Part shown: piece after piece, positions 1,381-25,228 of the stretch | Layout: every line of letters starts with the position of its first letter | Position numbering within the stretch: the stretch's first letter is position 1 | Origin: a virus | Length of the DNA: 25,228 bases | Reading direction: 5' to 3' (one strand) | IMG/VR virus record: IMGVR_UViG_3300025889_000873 | Coordinates: 1-25,228 of that record | Position numbers and translations under genes: made by a program | The notes under the pieces: model-generated | What the model saw: the letters and a program-made list of their open reading frames with translations, nothing else | Database searches by the model: none | Told to the model about the DNA's origin: nothing

Positions 1381-2415
1381 TTAAATTTCAAAAATATTCG
1401 GTCCGAATTCGCTGATATATCCGATCGCGTGACCCCATCGTGGCTCTGGTCCTGGTAAATACGAAAACGCTTTTGAAGAAGGATCCCCCAAATATCCAAG
1501 ATCCATTTCAAAAAGCATTCTGGCCGTTTTATCCGTGTTTAAACTTGCGACCGTTTCGACCGGATTCCAAACCAAACCAGGTCGATGAGTATGACACCGA
1601 ACAACGTGCATTTTGTGTTGCGATCTATGCAATCCGATTTGTCCCTTGTATCCATGAGTGTATGCAACGTTACCGCCGATCACAAAAGGTTCCTTTAAAT
1701 TAAAATGCGTTTCCACGCCGTCGAACAAATACTTTTTTCTAAAATCCGTTTCGTATTCAATTTCCGGGTTTTTATTAATCATTGAAATATAACCGCGCGC
1801 ATCATGATTCCCTAAGAGTTGAATCATCCGAATATCTTTTGAGCCGATCATATCCCTAATGGATCCCCAAAAAAATTCAAGTTGTGTTCGGGCGATGTCT
1901 ATTTCAATGTCGGGAGGAAGTACCGAAGTTTTTGGGGATGGGAAACGAGAATAAGCGAGCAAATCAAAAGCGTCGCCGCATTGTGCCACGTTTTTGACTA
2001 ACCCTTTACCGATCATAAATTCACAAAAAGCCAAAACCTTTTCGATTTTTTCCTTATCCCACCACGGGCAATGCATATCACCTAGCGCAATAGTAGGTTC
2101 GAAGGTTTCGAAGTGCGGAATGCTTGCGCCTAGTTTTGGCATTTCCAAAAGTTCATCAATATTCCTTTTATAAACTTGCGTGATCCGTTCCTTAACTTCC
2201 GACTTCATTTCCTTTTTAGATTTTTGCCTGGACGATTCAAGACCGGCGGAAATCCTGGCAATGGTCCAGGAGCTAAAAACCTCGTTGATTCGACGTTTGG
2301 AAAATTTTCCTATCGTGAGATATTCCGATCTAGTCAATGCGGGGTTGTTCAACTCAAGTGCAACCCGCTTTAGGTCTTTTATTATTTCGTGCGTCAAATC
2401 CTTTGAACCCATCAA
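1381..2415 (-). CDS. Calcineurin-like phosphoesterase with N-terminal homing-endonuclease-type repeat
   Basis: The 344-residue product carries the full metallophosphoesterase motif set in order: GDMH (residues 112-115), CGDAFD (146-151), GNHD (202-205), a lone His in YTHG (254) and CHTH (274-277). These residues bind two metal ions, so it should be an active phosphoesterase. Its substrate (nucleic acid, nucleotide or protein) cannot be read from sequence. Residues about 10-59 (KDLKRVALELNNP...W..AR.SAGL) look like the homing-endonuclease-associated repeat, a small DNA-binding unit found beside nuclease-like domains in phages. Residues 60-100 are a charged linker. The ATG overlaps the end of the adjacent leftward metallopeptidase gene by 4 nt, so the two form a pair transcribed leftward. 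Confidence 0.88.
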   Translation of the reverse strand: MMGSKDLTHEIIKDLKRVALELNNPALTRSEYLTIGKFSKRRINEVFSSWTIARISAGLESSRQKSKKEMKSEVKERITQVYKRNIDELLEMPKLGASIPHFETFEPTIALGDMHCPWWDKEKIEKVLAFCEFMIGKGLVKNVAQCGDAFDLLAYSRFPSPKTSVLPPDIEIDIARTQLEFFWGSIRDMIGSKDIRMIQLLGNHDARGYISMINKNPEIEYETDFRKKYLFDGVETHFNLKEPFVIGGNVAYTHGYKGQIGLHRSQHKMHVVRCHTHRPGLVWNPVETVASLNTDKTARMLFEMDLGYLGDPSSKAFSYLPGPEPRWGHAIGYISEFGPNIFEI

Positions 2416-2801
2416 ATCCCCCGGTTTAATATTCTTGTTAAATGTTCAACCGTTTTTTCCTCAACTTCGATCAATTCCCTATGCGTGACCAGGGTTCCCG
2501 ATAAAAGTTGCGCGCTTGAATTGCTTAATCCCGATAAAACAACGTGCAAAAGTTCGTGGCAAATCACCTCGTTTAAAATATTGGGCGGCTTTAAGGCGTG
2601 GGCGTTTACGGTTATAAGCGCGCGAGTATAGGAATTATCAATCGAAACATTGGCAGCATAATCCGCCGAATCGTTCACTTCGAATTCGAGACGAATATCC
2701 CATGATTCGAGCATAAGCGCCCGAATCCAATAATTAACTTCACGGGTGACCTTAGCCTTTTTTGTTTTATTCCAAAAACTCACCGAATAATGGTCCCCCA
2801 T
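2412..2801 (-). CDS. Phage HEXXH zinc metallopeptidase-like protein
   Basis: The 129-residue product has a HELLH zinc-binding helix at residues 82-86, preceded by a strand and hydrophobic turn (NEVICHELLH) as in SprT-like and related minimal zincins. A later acidic helix (VEEKTVEHL) could supply the third ligand. The N-terminal part with alternating hydrophobic residues and a VNAHAL strand fits the edge of a zincin sheet. Such short metallopeptidases recur in phage accessory regions; their targets are unknown. It is the first gene of the leftward pair. No Shine-Dalgarno is evident before its ATG. Confidence 0.75.
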   Translation of the reverse strand: MGDHYSVSFWNKTKKAKVTREVNYWIRALMLESWDIRLEFEVNDSADYAANVSIDNSYTRALITVNAHALKPPNILNEVICHELLHVVLSGLSNSSAQLLSGTLVTHRELIEVEEKTVEHLTRILNRGI

Positions 2802-3503: not shown

Positions 3504-6500
3504 ATGAGTTTTCATAAAGATTTAACAGACACCGACATTCACGCCCTGACGTTCCAAACCTTCGCGGATCAAGCGGCGCGCCTGGCATATAGTTATCAAG
3601 CGGCCGATGTTCACAAAATGGTTTATCAAACGGACACCGGAACTTATTTCCTGGTAAAAAGTACAACCCCGACGTTTCAGGAAATCGGTGCGGGCGGCGG
3701 AGGGGGAAGCTCGACATTCACCGGCCTAACAGATACACCGGCGAATTATACCGGCCACGCCGAAAAAGTTGTGAAAGTTAACGCGGGCGAAACGGCGGTC
3801 GAATTCACAACCCCGGGAAATTTAGAACTTGCAAGGGTTTCGGGTTCAACCTTTTCGACAATTCAGCATCTACAGGATATTTTTCATAGCTCCGGGGTTA
3901 TTTCGGGCGGACAAATCACGGATGACACCGACGGAACCATAACGGTTGCGGCCGGAACGGGATTAATTCGCGCGACCAATTCCGAAACCGCTGAAATAAA
4001 GTATACCGACTGGGCGGCCGAATCGGGCGCAAATGTTGCATTGACAGATAATGACATGAATTATGTTTATGTGGAATGGAACGCGGGAACGCCTCAAGTT
4101 ATAGCCTCCATCACCGAGCGAACGGACTATCAAACTAACATTTTGCTAGGGACCGTTTATAGGTCGGGAACGACGCTTCACATTACAGAAGACACCCGCC
4201 CCGCCGTAGGTGATCAAGCAGCAAAAATTATTCGAAGACTAACCGCCGTTGTTCCATTTGCCAGGGAATCGGGCGGCGTTATTAGTGAAACGGGAACGCG
4301 AAGCATTGCTATTAGTGCGGGTATTTGGTGGGAAGGCTTGACCCAATTTTCTACGGCGGCGTTTAATTCGAGCGTCTCTGATACGTTTAGAACTTTTTAC
4401 TGGAATGGAACATCGTGGGTTGAAACCGCCTCGCAAACTCAAATTGACAACACCCAATATAATGATTTTGGAGTCGGCCTAGCCACACTTTCAAATAATG
4501 CATATGGTGTTCACTGGATTTATCTAGCTCAAGACGGCGATGTATATTCCGTTTATGGTCAAGGCGATTATACATTATCGCAAGCGCAAGAATCGGTTCC
4601 CAATGGGGTTCCGGGACATTTTGCCGAAAACCATGCTCGCCTAGTTGGAAAGGTCATAATAAAAAAGAACTCCTCGTCATTCACTCAACTTGACAGCGCA
4701 TTCGATTTAACACTAAGCCCCGTTGCAGCATCGGAACATTCATCATTATTAAACTTAGGCGCGGATGATCACACGCAATATTCTTTAATTAGTTCTCAAG
4801 CGGGCGCGCCTACTTCAACCCCTTCAAGGGTCGGCGAGGTTAACGTTGATACAACGGCGGACGATGCTTATATTTCGGCGGGAACGGGCTCAAGTTCCGA
4901 TTGGAAACTTGCCAGTGAAACCGCAACTAGCATAAAAACAAAATACGAATCTAATGCGGACACAAACGCATTTACCGACGCCGAACAAACCAAGGTAGGT
5001 TACTTAACCGTGACACAAGCGGTTGACCTGGACACAATGGAAACCGACATTGCAACCAACAACGCGAAGGTTAGCAATGCAACCCACACGGGCGAAGTGA
5101 CAGGAAGCGGAGCATTGACCGTTGACAAAACCGCGATCACTAACAAAACACTTGTGACCGCCGCATCAACCGATCATGTCCTGGTGGCCGACTCTAGTGA
5201 TTTGGATAATCTTAAAAAAGTTTTGGTTTCTGACCTTCAAGGATCGGGAACGGACAATGACGCTATACATGATAATGTGGCCGGTGAGATTGCTTTAATA
5301 ACTGAAAAGGTTTCCCCGGTATCCGCCGACCTTTTAGTCATTGAGGATTCCGCCGATACGAACAATAAAAAGAGAATCCAGGTCGGAAACATTCCCCACG
5401 ATTCATTAAGTGGTTTTGTGGCCAATGAACATATTGACTGGACCGCCGCAAGTGCGGGAACCATTCATGCGACAAACTACGTTGATAACGACACAACCGA
5501 TCACGCGCTTTTAACTAATAAGGGAACAAATACCCACGCGCAAATCGATTCTCATATCGCCGACGCTGATAAGCACCGGGATATTTTACAAGGGGTTATT
5601 GCATCGCGCCCCGCATTCGGAACCGCCGGCCGGTACTATTACGCAACCGATGAAAAGAAATGGTACTATGACACGGGCGCCGCATGGGATTTAAGCGTGG
5701 CGACTCCGGACACACACACACACACCGCGTCGGAAATAACCGATTTTGACGCGGAGGTTTCTAATAATTCCGACGTTTCGGCTAACACCGCGAAGGTTAG
5801 CAATGCGACACATACGGGCGATGTCACGGGATCAACGGCGCTCACTATTGCTGCCAATGCCGCTGATAATACAAAAATATCGGACATGGCGCAAAATACC
5901 ATTAAGGGAAGAATTACCGCCGCAACGGGCGACCCGGAAGACTTAACCGCCGCGCAAGTTCGAACGATAATAAATGTTGAAGACGGTGCAACCGCCGATC
6001 AAACGGGCGCGGAAATTAAAACGGCTTATGAAGCCGAGGCCAATACTAATGCCTATACAGACGCCGAACAAACCAAGGTCGGTCACTTAACCGTGACACA
6101 AGCGGTTGACCTGGACACAATGGAAACCGACATTGCAACCAACAACGCGAAGATTTCTAATGCGACTCACACGGGCGAAGTTACGGGAAGCGGAGCGTTG
6201 ACCGTTGATAAAACGGCGATCACAAATAAAACTTTAGTGACAGCGGTGGGAACGGATCACGTTTTAATTGCCGACGCATCGGATACCGACAATTTAAAAA
6301 AGGCGCTTGTTTCGGATTTCCTAGGGGCGGGAACCGATAACGACGCGATCCATGATAACGTAGCCGGGGAAATTTCATTAATTACTGAAAAGGCTTCACC
6401 TGTTTCGGCGGATTTATTAATTATTGAGGATTCGGCGGATTCCAATAATAAAAAGCGCGTACAAATTGGAAACCTGCCAGGCGGCGGCGGTGGGATAACT

Positions 6501-8025: not shown

Positions 8026-8457
8026 ATGAAGTATTATGCTTATAGGTGGATAGGTAAGAAAAAGGTTTCTATCATGCGGCGCGAGTCCGAGGAGGCTTGC
8101 AGGGCGCGGCTATCTGAAAAACACGAATTTTTAGGCGAGGTCGAAGGACCGCCTAGCGGGGTTTTCGGCGAATCCTCATGGATTTGGGATGGCGAAAAAG
8201 TGGTTTGTGACCTGGTAGAAATAAGGCGCAATAAGATAGAAACGATTCGAACGATGCGAAATGAAAAACTAAAGGAAACGGATTTCGATTGGGTTAATCA
8301 TTCTTCCAGGGGTTCGTCCGGCGCGCGAGATAGAAAAAAAGTTGAATCAATAAAAATAAAACTTAGGGACATGATTCCTTTGCAGGAAGAAAAATTAAAC
8401 CTAATGACCGACGCGAATCAAATTGAATCATACGAACCGGAATGGCCGGTTGAATAA
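8026..8457 (+). CDS. Tail-fibre assembly chaperone-like protein (143 aa)
   Basis: It starts 1 nt after the fibre gene, with GGAGG inside the fibre's last codons as ribosome site. The C-terminal half carries an R.EKLKETDFDW segment followed by a long helix ending in KIKLRDMIPL. This matches the general pattern of phage tail-assembly chaperones (an R..LL..TDW helix, then an R..LRD helix). The N-terminal half has a small domain with a WIWDGEKVV strand. It probably helps the long fibre fold and trimerise; this is inferred from the motif and from its position directly downstream of the fibre. Sequence similarity is weak, so another fibre accessory role is possible. Confidence 0.6.
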   Translation: MKYYAYRWIGKKKVSIMRRESEEACRARLSEKHEFLGEVEGPPSGVFGESSWIWDGEKVVCDLVEIRRNKIETIRTMRNEKLKETDFDWVNHSSRGSSGARDRKKVESIKIKLRDMIPLQEEKLNLMTDANQIESYEPEWPVE

Positions 8458-8462
8458 AATTT

Positions 8463-8819
8463 ATGGCAAGACCTAGAAAAAAAATCGACGAAGAACTTTT
8501 AAAAGAACTTGCGATGATTCAATGCACGCAAGAGGAAATGGCTTCAATCTTAAAGTGCAGCGTTGATACATTGCAGCGCCGGTATTCCGACGTTCTGGCC
8601 GAAGCGCGGGAAAATGGGAAAATGTCTTTAAAGCGCGCAATGTATCGAAAGGCCGTGGTCGAGGGTAATCCCACCATGCAAATTTGGTTGTCTAAAAATT
8701 GGCTTCGCTATTCGGACAAAACGGAAATCACGCCGGGCGAAGGGGCGAAATCCCTGGTCGATATTATTAAGGCCTCGGTGGGTAAAAAGATGGAACCCGA
8801 AAAGTCGGAAGGCAAATAA
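8463..8819 (+). CDS. terS: Small terminase subunit-like HTH protein
   Basis: The 118-residue product begins MARPRKKIDEELL and has a helix-turn-helix of the resolvase/terminase kind at about residues 18-40 (CTQEEMASILKCSVDTLQRR). A helical part follows with SLKRAMYRKAVVEGNPTMQIWLSKNWL. This layout, with the GNPTMQIWL segment, is typical of one class of phage small terminases that recognise the packaging site and guide TerL. Unlike the usual order, TerL does not follow directly: a leftward gene cluster and an XRE gene intervene (TerL begins at 10536). The ATG has no clear Shine-Dalgarno. Two hairpins follow the stop. Confidence 0.75.
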   Translation: MARPRKKIDEELLKELAMIQCTQEEMASILKCSVDTLQRRYSDVLAEARENGKMSLKRAMYRKAVVEGNPTMQIWLSKNWLRYSDKTEITPGEGAKSLVDIIKASVGKKMEPEKSEGK

Positions 8820-8820
8820 A

Positions 8821-8858
8821 AAGCGCGCCCCAAAAGGATTAACTTTCAAGGCGCGCTT
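8821..8858. terminator. Hairpin after the TerS-like gene
   Basis: AAGCGCGCC at 8821-8829 pairs with GGCGCGCTT at 8850-8858 (9 bp) around a 20-nt loop, starting immediately after the stop of the TerS-like gene. It is a probable end of the rightward tail-fibre/TerS transcript. A T-tract is lacking, so its efficiency is uncertain. Confidence 0.6.
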
Positions 8859-8861
8859 AGT

Positions 8862-8888
8862 GGGCATTAATGAGGCATATTAATGCCC
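8862..8888. terminator. Second hairpin in the convergent gap
   Basis: GGGCATTAAT at 8862-8871 is the perfect complement of ATTAATGCCC at 8879-8888, with a 7-nt loop. It lies between the rightward TerS-like gene and the end of the leftward cluster, so it could terminate either strand. It could also be a protein-binding palindrome. Confidence 0.55.
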
Positions 8889-8905
8889 GGTTGGTATGAC
8901 TTCGA

Positions 8906-9061
8906 TTAACCTTCCATGACTTCCAGGTCTTTAACTTCGGTCGTGGCGTATTCAATTTCCAGGGCTTCCAGGTCTTTAATAAAGCGTTCCCTGGCTTTTG
9001 TGCTTTTAAAACAAAAAACTTCGTTTCCATCGTCTAATTTCACGGCTATTAAGTAATTCAT
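8906..9061 (-). CDS. Unrecognised acidic small protein (51 aa)
   Basis: On the minus strand an ATG at 9061 is preceded by GGAGG with 9 nt spacing. The 51-residue product begins MNYLIAVKLDDGNEVF and is followed by an amphipathic, acidic helix (KDLEALEIEYATTEVKDLEVME). A basic patch (KSTKARERF) sits between. It has no recognised family. The small size, acidity and location at the end of a regulated leftward operon resemble phage early or anti-host proteins, but that is only inference. A slightly earlier ATG is too close to the ribosome site to be favoured. Confidence 0.65.
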   Translation of the reverse strand: MNYLIAVKLDDGNEVFCFKSTKARERFIKDLEALEIEYATTEVKDLEVMEG

Positions 9062-9064
9062 TCT

Positions 9065-9118
9065 TCATTTCCTCCGCTTTTTATCCAATGCCTCTTTTAA
9101 CGCGCTTAGGTATCCCAT
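9065..9118 (-). CDS. Possible 17-aa mini-ORF, translation-coupled
   Basis: The ATG at 9118 overlaps the stop of the upstream gene (TAATG on the minus strand), and a GGAAGGAAGG lies just before it. The frame encodes MGYLSALKEALDKKRRK, a short amphipathic helix with a basic end, and stops 3 nt before the start of the 51-aa gene. It may be a real micro-protein or simply a bridge that keeps ribosomes moving to the next gene. Confidence 0.35.
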   Translation of the reverse strand: MGYLSALKEALDKKRRK

Positions 9119-9417
9119 TAAGCCGCCTTCCTTCCCTTTGCTACCTTCAAGGTAGAATAGTGACTTTTCACCTGGTATTGCTTCAAGAAGGCTTCGCCGT
9201 GATCCCGGAGGATTGCGTCGGTATCGATTACGGTTCGGCTTCGGTCTTCGGTGATAATCACGAAGTCGCCGAAATCCATCGCTCCATCATCCCCTAGGAT
9301 TCCCTCAATCTTAGTTTTCAATTCCTTTTCGAGTGCGGTGATTTCCTTTTTTTGTTCGCGCACGCGCTTGAACTGTTTTGCCAATTTTATTTTTGATTCG
9401 CTTTTTGTTTTTTTCAT
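9118..9417 (-). CDS. Phage protein with recombination-associated-type C-terminal segment (99 aa)
   Basis: The start at 9417 is preceded by the same ACGGAG leader that precedes the neighbouring gene. The 99-residue product has a Lys-rich coiled coil (about residues 1-40), then a compact domain with GDFVIITEDRSRTVIDTDAI...HGEAFLKQY.VKS....LKV. That pattern (strand, R/T, D..A/L, then 'Y.K.S...L.V') recalls segments found near YqaJ-type phage exonucleases and related recombination proteins. No exonuclease is encoded here. The functional link is a weak memory-based inference. It lies in the leftward operon, 20 nt after the 79-aa gene. Confidence 0.65.
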   Translation of the reverse strand: MKKTKSESKIKLAKQFKRVREQKKEITALEKELKTKIEGILGDDGAMDFGDFVIITEDRSRTVIDTDAILRDHGEAFLKQYQVKSHYSTLKVAKGRKAA

Positions 9418-9437
9418 TTCATTCTCCGTTTTGGTTT

Positions 9438-9677
9438 TTAGTTTTTTGATAGAATAAATTTTGCAACGACTTCGAGGGCTTCTTCGCTTGAATCCCTAAC
9501 GTGCGACCAGTCAAAACACTGTTCTTTTGCGAACCCATAGTCAATACCTCCAAATCCATCGCAAAGAAGATAAGCATTGATCCACTGTTCGGGAGTTAAA
9601 AGGTGATTGAGTTTCCCGTTGAAATGCATCGTTTCAATCACGATTTCTCTATTTGTTAACAATCGACTTTTTTTCAT
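9438..9677 (-). CDS. Unrecognised protein of leftward operon (79 aa)
   Basis: It is the first gene behind the leftward promoter at 9720-9748, and its ribosome site ACGGAG stands 6-7 nt before the ATG at 9677. The 79-residue product is helical with a tryptophan-rich middle (PEQWINAYLLCDGFGG...FDWSHV) and an acidic helix near the end (SSEEALEVVAKFIL). No family is recognised. Being promoter-proximal in a regulated minor operon suggests a regulatory or early role. Confidence 0.65.
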   Translation of the reverse strand: MKKSRLLTNREIVIETMHFNGKLNHLLTPEQWINAYLLCDGFGGIDYGFAKEQCFDWSHVRDSSEEALEVVAKFILSKN

Positions 9678-9707
9678 TTCATTCTCCGTTCTTTCAGGTT
9701 TATTGCC

Positions 9708-9725
9708 TGATATGTATATATCATA
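9708..9725. promoter_or_regulatory. Operator candidate O1 (18-bp near-palindrome)
   Basis: TGATATGTATATATCATA contains TGATAT and its exact complement ATATCA around a 4-nt centre. The same 18 bp occurs at 10096-10113. It overlaps the -10 and start region of the leftward promoter, the position where a bound repressor would block RNA polymerase. Outer flanks CCTGA (9706-9710) and TCAGG (9735-9739) add a wider inverted repeat not shared with the second copy. Confidence 0.65.
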
Positions 9726-9748
9726 TCGAATTAATCAGGTATTGTCAA
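9720..9748 (-). promoter_or_regulatory. Leftward sigma70 promoter PL1
   Basis: Read on the minus strand, a perfect TTGACA (-35, 9748-9743) and TATGAT (-10, 9725-9720) are separated by exactly 17 nt. Transcription would start near 9713 and run into the 79-, 99- and 51-aa genes. An operator candidate overlaps the -10 and start point. Confidence 0.85.
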
Positions 9749-9752
9749 CTTT

Positions 9753-10064
9753 TTATTTATTGTTCGAATTTCCCTTAATTTCTTCCTCCATAGCAATGAC
9801 CAGGGGAAGGAGGGCTTTTTTTGTCCCGGCGCTTAGAACTTCTTTTGATTCGCCATTTTTGCCGATCACTTGCATAACACAATGCTTGCGACCGATTTTT
9901 TCGTGATAATAATGGCCGATATTTTTAGAATTGTCTTCAGGGTTGATTTTTTCTCTAGGGCTTTTTGTCACGATGTTTAAGAAAAGTATCCAGTCGATTA
10001 AGTCAATATCTAATCGGGTAGTTTTTTTCTTCATTGTTTTTTTCTTCATTGTTTTTCTTTTCAT
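9753..10064 (-). CDS. Unrecognised Lys-rich-N-terminus protein (103 aa)
   Basis: The ATG at 10064 is chosen because GGAG lies 9 nt upstream and the leftward promoter at 10108-10136 places its transcript start between this ATG and the longer in-frame start at 10136. The N-terminus repeats MK(R/K)K T three times, encoded partly by a tandem 15-nt repeat, so ATGs at 10049 and 10034 could also serve. The rest has a hydrophobic helix (DLIDWILFLNIVT) and a strand region (HCVMQVIGKNGESKEVL) but no known motif. Its end reaches to 5 nt from the -35 of the next leftward promoter. Function unknown. Confidence 0.6.
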   Translation of the reverse strand: MKRKTMKKKTMKKKTTRLDIDLIDWILFLNIVTKSPREKINPEDNSKNIGHYYHEKIGRKHCVMQVIGKNGESKEVLSAGTKKALLPLVIAMEEEIKGNSNNK

Positions 10065-10094
10065 TCTCTTTTTCTCCGTTTCAAGCTTTATTGC

Positions 10095-10123
10095 TTGATA
10101 TGTATATATCATAGCAATATAGT
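10095..10123 (+). promoter_or_regulatory. Rightward promoter candidate PR overlapping PL2
   Basis: TTGATA at 10095-10100 and TATAGT at 10118-10123 are exactly 17 nt apart on the plus strand. Each matches the sigma70 consensus at 5 of 6 positions. Transcription would start near 10130, about 60 nt before the XRE gene. It occupies nearly the same DNA as PL2, so the two cannot easily fire together. Confidence 0.6.
10096..10113. promoter_or_regulatory. Operator candidate O2 (identical 18-bp near-palindrome)
   Basis: This second copy of TGATATGTATATATCATA covers the -10 of the leftward promoter PL2 and almost all of the -35 of the rightward promoter candidate PR. Binding of one dimeric regulator here could shut both. 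The adjacent XRE-family gene is the obvious candidate for the binding protein. Outer flanks here are TTGCT/AGCAA, different from the first copy. Confidence 0.65.
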
Positions 10124-10136
10124 CAGGTATCGTCAA
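10108..10136 (-). promoter_or_regulatory. Leftward sigma70 promoter PL2
   Basis: On the minus strand TTGACG (10136-10131) and TATGAT (10113-10108) are 17 nt apart. It resembles PL1 across the whole core, including an ATACCTGA after the -35. It would drive the 103-aa gene and perhaps read on into the genes further left. Confidence 0.8.
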
Positions 10137-10188
10137 CCCTTTTTTTAATGCTAGTAATCATTCGGTTTTTTGTGCTTAATTGGGGGGG

Positions 10189-10539
10189 ATGGCTAAAAAC
10201 GACCAGGAAACGTTTGGAACACTTATAAAGGAAGCGCGGGAAGGCGAGCGTTTAAGCCTTCGTGCGGCTTCTCACCTATGCGGATTATCCCATGGATACT
10301 TAGGCGCGCTTGAACACAATCGCGCCGGATCGATCCCGTCGACCGAAACCCTGGAGAAAATAGCGCGCGGGTTTAACCTGGATATTTCAAAACTAAAAAG
10401 GTTAGCCCAAGAAATCGAAGTCGAAAAAAAGGAAACATCGAAACACGGTCGCGAGTTTGAAAGAATTACAATCGAAGCGGGATTAACTTTCGAACGCGGC
10501 TTGCAACTTTATAAAGAGGCTTTAAAACTTTTCGCGTGA
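10189..10539 (+). CDS. XRE-family HTH regulator
   Basis: The 116-residue product has a Cro/CI-type helix-turn-helix at about residues 8-65: an 'FGTLIKEAREGERLSLRAASHLCGLS' first half, then 'GYLGALEHNRAGSIPSTETLEKIARGFNLD'. A helical tail follows that could dimerise. It should bind a palindromic operator; two identical near-palindromes lie just upstream and beyond. The ATG is directly preceded by seven G, an unusual ribosome-site arrangement, and a TTG at 10180 is an in-frame alternative. Its stop overlaps the GTG of the large terminase, so it is cotranscribed with it. It could be a repressor of the leftward operon, or a second DNA-recognition subunit for packaging. Confidence 0.85.
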   Translation: MAKNDQETFGTLIKEAREGERLSLRAASHLCGLSHGYLGALEHNRAGSIPSTETLEKIARGFNLDISKLKRLAQEIEVEKKETSKHGREFERITIEAGLTFERGLQLYKEALKLFA

Positions 10540-12110
10540 CGTTATCCGAAAATGAAATAAATAAAATTCAAAATGATATTGTTTTCCATATCGAAGAAAT
10601 TCAGGGGATCAAAACCCTAGAACCTTACCAAAAAAGAATTTGCGAAGCCGTTTCCAATTATGACCGCGTGGTGATTTCAGCGTGCCACGATGTTGGAAAA
10701 ACCTTCACCCTTTCAAGAATTGTTTTAGCGCTTGGATCAAGTTTTCCCGGTTGTAAAATAATTACGACCGCACCGACATTCCTTCAAGTCGAAAAGCTTT
10801 TGTGGGCTGAAATCCGTTCGGGTTTTCGTGATTCGGCCACGCCTTTAGGTGGTTCCATGTTAAACGTTGAATGGAAAATTTCGCCCGATTGGTTCGCGCT
10901 TGGAACCTCCCCAAAAGATGACGCCGGTTCGGGCGAAGGCCAGGGAACGGGGTCCAGGTTTCAAGGTTTTCATGGCGACATGGTTGTAATCATTTTTGAT
11001 GAGGCAACCGGTGTTCATCCGAAACGATGGGTTCAAGCCGAAGGAATGCTAACTTCGGCGAATACTAAATTCATAGCGATCGGGAATCCGACTTCCAGGT
11101 CGAGCGAATTCTTTAAATGTTTTTCGAACCCGCTTTTTAAGAAAATAAAAATTAGTTGTTTCGATTCGCCGAACCTTATTGAAAACGGCGTTTCGAATCT
11201 CGCACAATTAAAGCGCGAAGCGGATCGAATTCGGGAAATAACAGACGACGATGAGCGCCTGGACGAAATCAAAAATTATAAAGTTGTGCAACCCAAACTT
11301 ATTACGATGCAATGGGTTATCAATTCGGCTTTAAGGTGGGGTTTTGAGCATCCTCTTTTTATCTCAAAAGTTTTAGGCCAATTTCCCGACGAGGATTCCA
11401 ATGCCATTGTTAAAATGCATGACGTTGAAACCGCACAAAATCGCGAGGCTTCAACGGAAGGCGGGCGATTTATAGGGGTTGACCCCGCGCATTTTGGAAC
11501 CGATTCAACCGTGATAACAGTCATTGAAGGAAACGAACAAACGCAACGCATCGAACTCACAAAAGCCGACACTTCGGAAGTCACCGGCCGAATCGTTCGT
11601 TTAATAAATAGCCTTGAACGGCGTCAAAATGAAGTTGTGGTTATTGACGCAACCGGGATCGGCGCCGGTGTATCCGATCAACTTAGAGAACGGCGACGCG
11701 ATGGGATAATCCCGGAATCAACCTTGCTAAGACCAGTCCACTTCGGCGCGCAAGTACCCATCGAGTCGGAAAAAAAGACTTATTCAAATTTAAAGGCAAA
11801 ACTTTTTGTTGAGCTAGGCCAGGACTTAAAAAACGAATTGTCGATCCTTCCCGACTCCGTTTATTTGGAAGAACTTCCAACAATAATTTATAAGTTTGAC
11901 TCGCGTGGTCGGTATCAAATAGAATCGAAGGATGATTACAAGAAACGGACAGGGAGGGGATCGCCCGATAATAGCGATTCACTTGCGCTCGCAAATTATG
12001 GTCGAAAAAGTATTAATAAAGTAGGATCATTTGCGAAGATGTCCGGCGCAACGGGCGGAGCGGAAACAATCGGAACCCTGGTAAATTCCGGCGGTTCGAA
12101 TAATTGGTAA
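10536..12110 (+). CDS. terL: Large terminase subunit (packaging ATPase and nuclease)
   Basis: The 524-residue product contains the ATPase motor: Walker A-like CHDVGKT (50-56), Walker B VVIIFDEA (150-157) with the catalytic Glu156, and a coupling motif AIGNPT (181-186). The C-terminal RNase H-like nuclease has acidic residues in GVDPAHFGTDS (Asp316), VVVIDATGIG (Asp371) and SPDNSDSLAL (Asp478/Asp481). It cuts concatemeric DNA and pumps it through the portal. It starts with GTG, overlapping the XRE gene by 4 nt; the portal gene begins 6 nt after its stop. The length is normal for the family and no disruption is visible. Confidence 0.95.
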   Translation: MTLSENEINKIQNDIVFHIEEIQGIKTLEPYQKRICEAVSNYDRVVISACHDVGKTFTLSRIVLALGSSFPGCKIITTAPTFLQVEKLLWAEIRSGFRDSATPLGGSMLNVEWKISPDWFALGTSPKDDAGSGEGQGTGSRFQGFHGDMVVIIFDEATGVHPKRWVQAEGMLTSANTKFIAIGNPTSRSSEFFKCFSNPLFKKIKISCFDSPNLIENGVSNLAQLKREADRIREITDDDERLDEIKNYKVVQPKLITMQWVINSALRWGFEHPLFISKVLGQFPDEDSNAIVKMHDVETAQNREASTEGGRFIGVDPAHFGTDSTVITVIEGNEQTQRIELTKADTSEVTGRIVRLINSLERRQNEVVVIDATGIGAGVSDQLRERRRDGIIPESTLLRPVHFGAQVPIESEKKTYSNLKAKLFVELGQDLKNELSILPDSVYLEELPTIIYKFDSRGRYQIESKDDYKKRTGRGSPDNSDSLALANYGRKSINKVGSFAKMSGATGGAETIGTLVNSGGSNNW

Positions 12111-24264: not shown

Positions 24265-25228
24265 TGTCCGTTCGTTATCGCGTATATTTAACACCTCAAG
24301 TAACAAAAGGAACCTATGGAACCGAAATTGAAATTTCCGACCGGGTTACTCTTTCGGGTCTTAACAAGATGCGCAAAAGCCTTGATTCCTCCGATTTTGA
24401 TATTGGCGCTTATTATTATGGAGACATTAATTTAACCGGCGCAAATGATGACGGGTTTTTCAGTGAAGACGATGATCGATCCGTTTTTCCCGGTGGCCGT
24501 GACCTCTCAAAAGTTCGGGTTTCCTTCGATGAATCCGGGACGGAAACGACTCTTTTTAAGGGATTAATAAACGAAGAATCAACCCGATTAAATATCGTCA
24601 CGAATTCAATCCAAATGAGGGTATTGAGCCAGGACTCTGTTATCCGAACGGCAAAAGTTAACCCGGCGGTTATTCCGAACGGGGTTTCCGCTTCAAGTGC
24701 TATGCTAACAATTTTAAACCAGGCCCATATCACAAACATTTTAGGCGTTGACGCGGGAAATATAAATGTTCCCTATGATCCTAATATCGACGATGGTTCA
24801 CAGTATGATAATTTGAGCGTTCGAGATGTTTTAAACGAGCTTTTATTGATAAGCAATTCGGTCATGTTTATTGATTCAAACGATGACATTATCATTCGTT
24901 CAAGAAATGAAAACGCGAACCCTATCCGATACCTTTACGGACCTTTTGACATGAACGGTCGGGAAAATATTGTCGCTGTAAAGAAATTCAATAACGGAAA
25001 ACATCGCATGGTGAATTCGGTTAAGGTTAATAATTCAGAAGTGAACGACGGTGATTTGATTAATACGTTCGGATTTAAACAAAAGAAAATCGACGTTGAC
25101 TCCATAACGGCGCAAGCGACCGAAGAAGCGATCGCGCAAGTAATCCTGGACGAATTCAAGGCGCCTAAAATTGAATTGGAATTAACAGTTAAAACCGAAC
25201 TTGCAAAAAACTATGATTTACAGGATCG
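24264..25228 (+). CDS. Baseplate/tail hub-like structural protein, 3'-truncated
   Basis: The ATG at 24264 overlaps the previous stop (TAATG), and the frame remains open to the window edge (321 codons). The visible part is strand-rich with 'DFDIGAYYYGDINLTGANDDG' and 'KVRVSFDESGTETTLFKGLI', then 'DGSQYDNLSVRDVLNELLLISNSVMFIDSNDDIIIRSR'. This resembles the hub barrels (gp27-like) of phage tail tips, which have a substrate-like ring and then a 'one residue per state' domain. It probably continues with a tip or lysin domain outside the window. The exact family is not certain. Confidence 0.65.
   Translation, partial: MSVRYRVYLTPQVTKGTYGTEIEISDRVTLSGLNKMRKSLDSSDFDIGAYYYGDINLTGANDDGFFSEDDDRSVFPGGRDLSKVRVSFDESGTETTLFKGLINEESTRLNIVTNSIQMRVLSQDSVIRTAKVNPAVIPNGVSASSAMLTILNQAHITNILGVDAGNINVPYDPNIDDGSQYDNLSVRDVLNELLLISNSVMFIDSNDDIIIRSRNENANPIRYLYGPFDMNGRENIVAVKKFNNGKHRMVNSVKVNNSEVNDGDLINTFGFKQKKIDVDSITAQATEEAIAQVILDEFKAPKIELELTVKTELAKNYDLQD

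Follow-up and report, generated by a model that had tools for sequence, protein, structure and literature searches.

An XRE-regulated accessory cassette proposed between the small and large terminase genes of an uncultured phage

Introduction

The genes for the small and large terminase subunits, terS and terL, are usually adjacent in tailed phages. Several described systems nevertheless offer points of comparison for a locus in which this pair is separated. One is the phage moron, exemplified in prophage ST64B by an accessory locus that runs antisense from a promoter of its own (PMC7067206). Another is the acr-aca operon, whose helix-turn-helix (HTH) Aca proteins recognize inverted repeats within the core promoter and end a strong early burst of transcription that would otherwise be harmful to later phage transcription (PMC9410906). 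Divergent CI/Cro switches and the YqaJ/RecE-like exonuclease and RecT recombination modules are also relevant.

This work describes a locus in an uncultured phage where a block of four small leftward genes (g1 to g4) and a rightward XRE-family regulator gene lie between terS and terL. A literature search for terS-terL inserts found no close parallel. The reading that we consider rather probable is that an early, moron-like accessory cassette, carrying its own regulator, was inserted between the two terminase genes and that the XRE protein shuts the cassette off.

The phage genome

The window, that is, the whole stretch of DNA analyzed here (25,228 bases), corresponds to the entire IMG/VR record IMGVR_UViG_3300025889_000873. 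A near-identical record, IMGVR 3300025769_000739, overlaps both window ends, and by arithmetic the two jointly complete a circular genome of about 36 kb. Since their junction (window 24799-25228) is 97% identical, they represent different strains of the same phage. Outside the structural genes, the genome encodes RecT, a ParB-like protein, a DNA methyltransferase, and a Holliday-junction-resolvase-like protein.

The rightward genes upstream of terS encode a 1506-aa fibre-like protein and then a 143-aa protein. The fibre-like gene contains an internal 400-bp duplication (window 4973-5372 versus 6056-6455, 80% identity). The 143-aa protein (window 8026-8457) is 93% identical to that of the L001 strain, while the other compared genes reach 99-100%, and its gene appears to be a local hot spot of variation. 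A second leftward pair amid rightward genes (window 1381-2801) encodes a metallophosphoesterase that carries an HNH-associated repeat, together with a weakly SprT-like protein.

Anatomy of the terS-terL interval

The interval begins behind a rightward terS-like gene (8463-8819, 118 aa), which matches the terminase small subunit family PHROG 309 (E 2.6e-9). The minus strand that follows carries g1 (8906-9061, 51 aa), g2 (9118-9417, 99 aa), g3 (9438-9677, 79 aa), and g4 (9753-10064, 103 aa), each preceded by a GGAG-type ribosome site. According to a coding score based on codon usage and trained on other genes of the same phage, these four genes reach 0.18-0.45 bits/codon, compared with about 0 or negative values for opposite-strand ORFs. 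Behind g1, an intrinsic terminator for the leftward operon (8821-8858, minus strand; 16-bp stem followed by a T-run) is preceded by a second minus-strand hairpin (8862-8888, from the fold of 8815-8905); folded jointly, the two hairpins reach -37.6 kcal/mol (z -6.7 versus shuffles). The translation start regions of g2 and g3 are identical over 23 nt (window 9408-9430 and 9668-9690), and in each the start codon is overlapped by a reading frame of two codons (ATG AAA TGA).

On the plus strand, the XRE regulator gene (10189-10539, 116 aa; Pfam HTH_3, E 2.3e-8) is followed by terL (10536-12110; PHROG 2, E 2.8e-30), whose GTG start at 10536 agrees with that of the TerL from the closest relative, L005, and overlaps the 3' end of the XRE gene by 4 nt. 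The XRE start is most likely ATG 10189 and not the first in-frame TTG (10180). A run of seven G (window 10182-10188) stands directly before this start codon, making an unusual and poorly recognizable ribosome site. The leftward small genes and the two hairpins that the initial annotation had placed between the TerS-like gene and XRE-TerL were thus all confirmed in position.

The block is absent from TerL relatives

To place this arrangement among related phages, 11 TerL relatives from IMG/VR were read, with TerL identities of 44-67%; in none (0/11) do leftward genes or an XRE gene precede terL. In L005 (TerL 67%, TerS 52%), TerL is the next gene after TerS, with a gap of 155 bp, and in L014 (TerL 47%, TerS 38%) TerL again comes next and overlaps TerS, with neither block nor XRE in either case. 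The other nine relatives have a same-strand gene before terL, again with no leftward block and no XRE, the small upstream gene being a candidate terS in most of them. In L006, a DNA methyltransferase gene (L006:1998-3668) stands directly before terL, indicating that the junction upstream of terL tolerates cargo. Relatives of the XRE protein were likewise missing from five TerL-relative records searched and from the ORFs of the loci fetched, and viral-contig scans recovered none beyond the phage itself.

Because the TerL relatives lack both the leftward genes and XRE, the block and its regulator are best interpreted as an insertion in one lineage, loss in all relatives being less likely. A conserved terS-block-terL module was rejected on account of this absence. 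The initial annotation had proposed that one regulator wires packaging and leftward genes together. When synteny of the block with XRE-TerL was compared across related phages, the adjacent terS and terL of L005 and L014 largely contradicted such wiring as a general or conserved feature; for the phage itself the proposal survives, and the local anatomy makes joint regulation plausible.

The leftward proteins

Among the leftward products, g2 is recognizable. It matches PHROG 434 (RecE-like exonuclease) at positions 275-366 of 372 (E 3.1e-6) and PHROG 1956 (E 1.6e-4), and it aligns with the C-terminus of a RecE-like nuclease in locus L119; PHROG 434 covers most of that nuclease, and PHROG 1956 matches the end of it. 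No match to the YqaJ nuclease domain (PF09588) was found in g2. The PHROG profiles and the L119 protein place g2 as the C-terminal domain of a YqaJ/RecE-like exonuclease standing alone, without the nuclease. BLASTP of g2 against the nuclease of locus L084 found nothing, a profile search for stand-alone g2 relatives (alignment A3) returned the phage itself only, and tblastn against the phage collection was uninformative for both g2 and g3. With a pLDDT of 57.7, the AlphaFold2 model of g2 was poor, and it was left out of the fold search. The RecT-like gene of the phage (L081:1377-2267) lies elsewhere in the genome than g2, and no exonuclease gene was found beside it.

The g3 protein belongs to a widespread phage family without a name, defined by the motif DGFG...DWSHVRDSS. 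Its first relative was detected in L084 (51% over 61 residues), and a two-row profile search extended the family to 30 viral contigs, 2 from the phage itself and 28 others, several being near-duplicates. Members were drawn from window 9438-9677 and loci L084 and L092-L120; in alignment A2, G..G and DWSHVRDS are present in 21/21 members aligned. A scan of cellular genomes added one relative, in a Methylobacterium assembly. The family has no match in Pfam, NCBIfam, PADLOC, or PDB sequences, PHROGs gave a weak match to 1/21 members, and the literature searched yielded no paper on the motif. The AlphaFold2 model of g3 is all-helical (pLDDT 94.8); it matched no PDB fold and, in BFVD, a single entry that is another uncharacterized phage protein.

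The L084 relative of g3 is encoded upstream of genes for CsrA, a YqaJ nuclease, and RecT, and the L119 relative within about 1.5-3.5 kb of RecT and the RecE-like nuclease. The L113 relative closely faces terS-terL from the opposite strand, in a region where a topoisomerase-family gene is also present, and the L115 relative likewise sits on the strand opposite TerS. The DWSHVRDSS family is the most durable new item of this analysis: a small, confidently modelled phage family outside Pfam, NCBIfam, PADLOC, and PDB, and a candidate for host or defence interaction.

The remaining two proteins are orphans. For g1, a very weak likeness to DUF5659/DUF3110 (E about 0.1) fell below the cut-off, and no relatives were found among the ORFs of the loci fetched. 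The same ORFs held no relatives of g4, for which viral-contig scans gave only the phage itself; g4 displays a lysine-rich N-terminal repeat (D4). Lacking relatives, g1 and g4 have no tie to early functions. Remote-homology searches therefore bear out for g1 and g4 the earlier view that no leftward protein could be named, but not for g2, which is recognizable, or g3, which defines a family although an unnamed one.

Duplicated promoters and a shared palindrome

The leftward genes are headed by two copies of one unit, at 9696-9762 and 10084-10150, which are 82% identical and extend to about 98 bp at ~80% by BLASTN. Read on the minus strand, each copy presents TTGAC[A/G]-17-TATGAT, a palindrome over the expected start, a small hairpin, a GGAG site, and then g3 or g4. 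The predicted promoter P1 (9720-9748, TTGACA-17-TATGAT, 11/12 consensus) precedes g3-g2-g1, and the predicted promoter P2 (10108-10136, TTGACG-17-TATGAT, 10/12 consensus) precedes g4. The palindrome, TGATATATACATATCA, is 16 bp long and near-perfect, and its two copies in the window represent candidate operators. The first (9708-9723) spans the -10 and start site of P1; the second (10096-10111) lies at P2 and overlaps the -35 of a predicted rightward promoter for XRE-terL as well (10095-10123, plus strand, TTGATA-17-TATAGT, 10/12 consensus). No rightward promoter was found at the g3 copy of the repeat.

Folding and repeat alignment place a hairpin in the 5'-UTR of each predicted transcript, TCAGG/CCTGA for P1 (9694-9710, minus strand) and TCAAGC/GCTTGA for P2 (10081-10098, minus strand). 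The stem is preserved between P1 and P2 despite changes on both sides, a weak signal that comes from two copies only.

The palindrome occurs in the window as 4 strand-matches against 0.12 expected (0/100 shuffles), and the remaining 12 kb of the genome holds one two-mismatch match, inside a tail gene. The promoter-operator pattern was absent from viral contigs outside the two near-identical records; the palindrome is known from two copies, in near-identical strains only. The strong promoters and operator candidates of the initial annotation thus fared unequally: promoter consensus matches as a set are not above chance (5 versus 4.2 expected in shuffles), whereas the duplicated unit and its palindrome are.

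These repeats could also belong to a simple moron without cross-talk, where P1 and P2 are constitutive, the palindrome is no more than a component of a duplicated promoter, and the target of XRE is terL, its own gene, or something different. The palindrome does sit within the larger duplicated stretch, and its repetition may reflect duplication alone. However, the repeat alignment shows the -10 and palindrome stretch fully kept while the spacer and flanks have diverged, and we regard this explanation as unlikely.

The XRE regulator

The XRE gene is present in a single copy in the genome, and its product is the sole HTH-family match above the cut-off in the block, g1-g4 matching none. It stands divergent from the small-gene operon and not inside it, heading the terL operon and facing the leftward operon across the palindrome-bearing promoter region. 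Its position makes joint control of the packaging and leftward genes plausible on anatomical grounds. A restriction-modification controller was considered and rejected, as the block contains no R-M gene.

The weak relatives of XRE in named phages (28-40% identity) are repressors of temperate phages, namely phi105 and Streptococcus prophages. Together with the palindrome shared by the divergent promoters, this likeness would suit a lysogeny or carrier-state switch, with XRE as a CI-like repressor keeping leftward early genes off. Against this, neither a tyrosine integrase (PF00589) nor a serine resolvase (PF00239) was matched in the two records that together appear to close the genome, the divergent pair has a single HTH gene, the leftward genes are not replication genes, and the block is absent from relatives. 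Such a switch seems improbable. An early character fits the leftward set better than lysogeny, because some relatives of g2 and g3 are encoded near recombination or replication genes and the genome yielded neither an integrase nor a resolvase; the initial annotation had left both options, early or lysogeny-like, and it is the former that is favoured here.

The same anatomy recalls a strict counter-defence cassette, with anti-CRISPR proteins or other defence inhibitors among g1-g4 and XRE as an Aca-type autorepressor. Like acr-aca loci (PMC9410906, PMC9765179), the block combines small orphan proteins, strong predicted promoters, and a structural-region location with core-promoter inverted repeats and an HTH_3 protein. 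Comparison of g1-g4 with Pfam and NCBIfam families and PADLOC models, none of which is a dedicated Acr library, gave no match; g2 resembles an exonuclease domain; and Aca genes are normally downstream in the same operon, whereas the HTH gene here is divergent. A strict cassette of this kind is accordingly doubtful.

Proposed mechanism

The preferred reading, an early accessory cassette that XRE shuts off, builds on elements read directly from the DNA (the genes with their coding frames, the terminator, the promoter units and their duplication, the palindromes, block absence in relatives, and the family placement of g2 and g3) and adds to them XRE binding, repression, timing, read-through, and protein roles as proposals. 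P1 and P2 would drive a strong leftward burst of g4-g3-g2-g1 that stops at the terminator behind g1. XRE, made from the facing promoter, would then bind the palindrome at the -10/+1 of P1 and P2 and turn the burst off, and it would limit its own synthesis because the P2 palindrome covers the -35 of the XRE-terL promoter. With the leftward promoters off, rightward read-through across terS, XRE, terL, and the head genes could proceed late in infection. Repression by XRE of P1, P2, and its own promoter is proposed on the acr-aca precedent and is the most likely role of the protein by that analogy. An XRE-driven hand-over to the packaging operon could also take place, as XRE is divergent and leads into terL.

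The cassette products may act in early phage DNA metabolism or in host or defence interaction. As a free exonuclease C-terminal domain, g2 might serve as an adaptor for the exonuclease-less phage RecT, and g3 would be a widespread early-region protein.

A bolder version can be offered tentatively, at low confidence. The cassette may have taken over the entry to the head and packaging operon, with XRE translation coupled to terL and one autoregulated divergent promoter switching both early accessory and packaging genes without a lysogeny module, g3 representing a new fold family used early. Returning to the preferred reading, its broader meaning is that two terminase genes which are usually neighbours can accommodate an accessory cassette between them, one that places a regulator of its own at the start of the packaging operon.

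Comparison with known systems

The cassette is lineage-specific, probably self-regulated and early in character, and probably no lysogeny module; it is not a conserved packaging switch, and it shares features with four known systems. With CI/Cro switches it has in common divergent promoters that share an operator-like palindrome beside a CI/Cro-type HTH protein, but it possesses one HTH protein instead of two opposing repressors, and no integration genes. With YqaJ/RecE-like exonuclease and RecT modules (PHROG 434, PF09588) it is connected by the C-terminal-domain match of g2, the RecT of the phage, and the g3 relatives that in some cases adjoin such modules; it differs in that g2 lacks the nuclease domain and RecT is encoded elsewhere in the genome.

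The likeness to morons lies in its absence from relatives at the same site, as L005 and L014 demonstrate, and in a predicted promoter and terminator of its own, on the opposite strand within the structural region. Unlike in morons, its XRE gene overlaps terL and heads the packaging operon, in a phage without a detectable integrase. The likeness to acr-aca operons comprises small proteins, strong predicted promoters, a core-promoter inverted repeat, and an HTH_3 regulator alongside; the differences are that XRE is divergent and not downstream in the same operon, and that g1-g4 match no known family. By its anatomy, the cassette is a moron-like insertion, while its working would be acr-aca-like, departing from that system in one defining feature, the HTH gene within the same operon.
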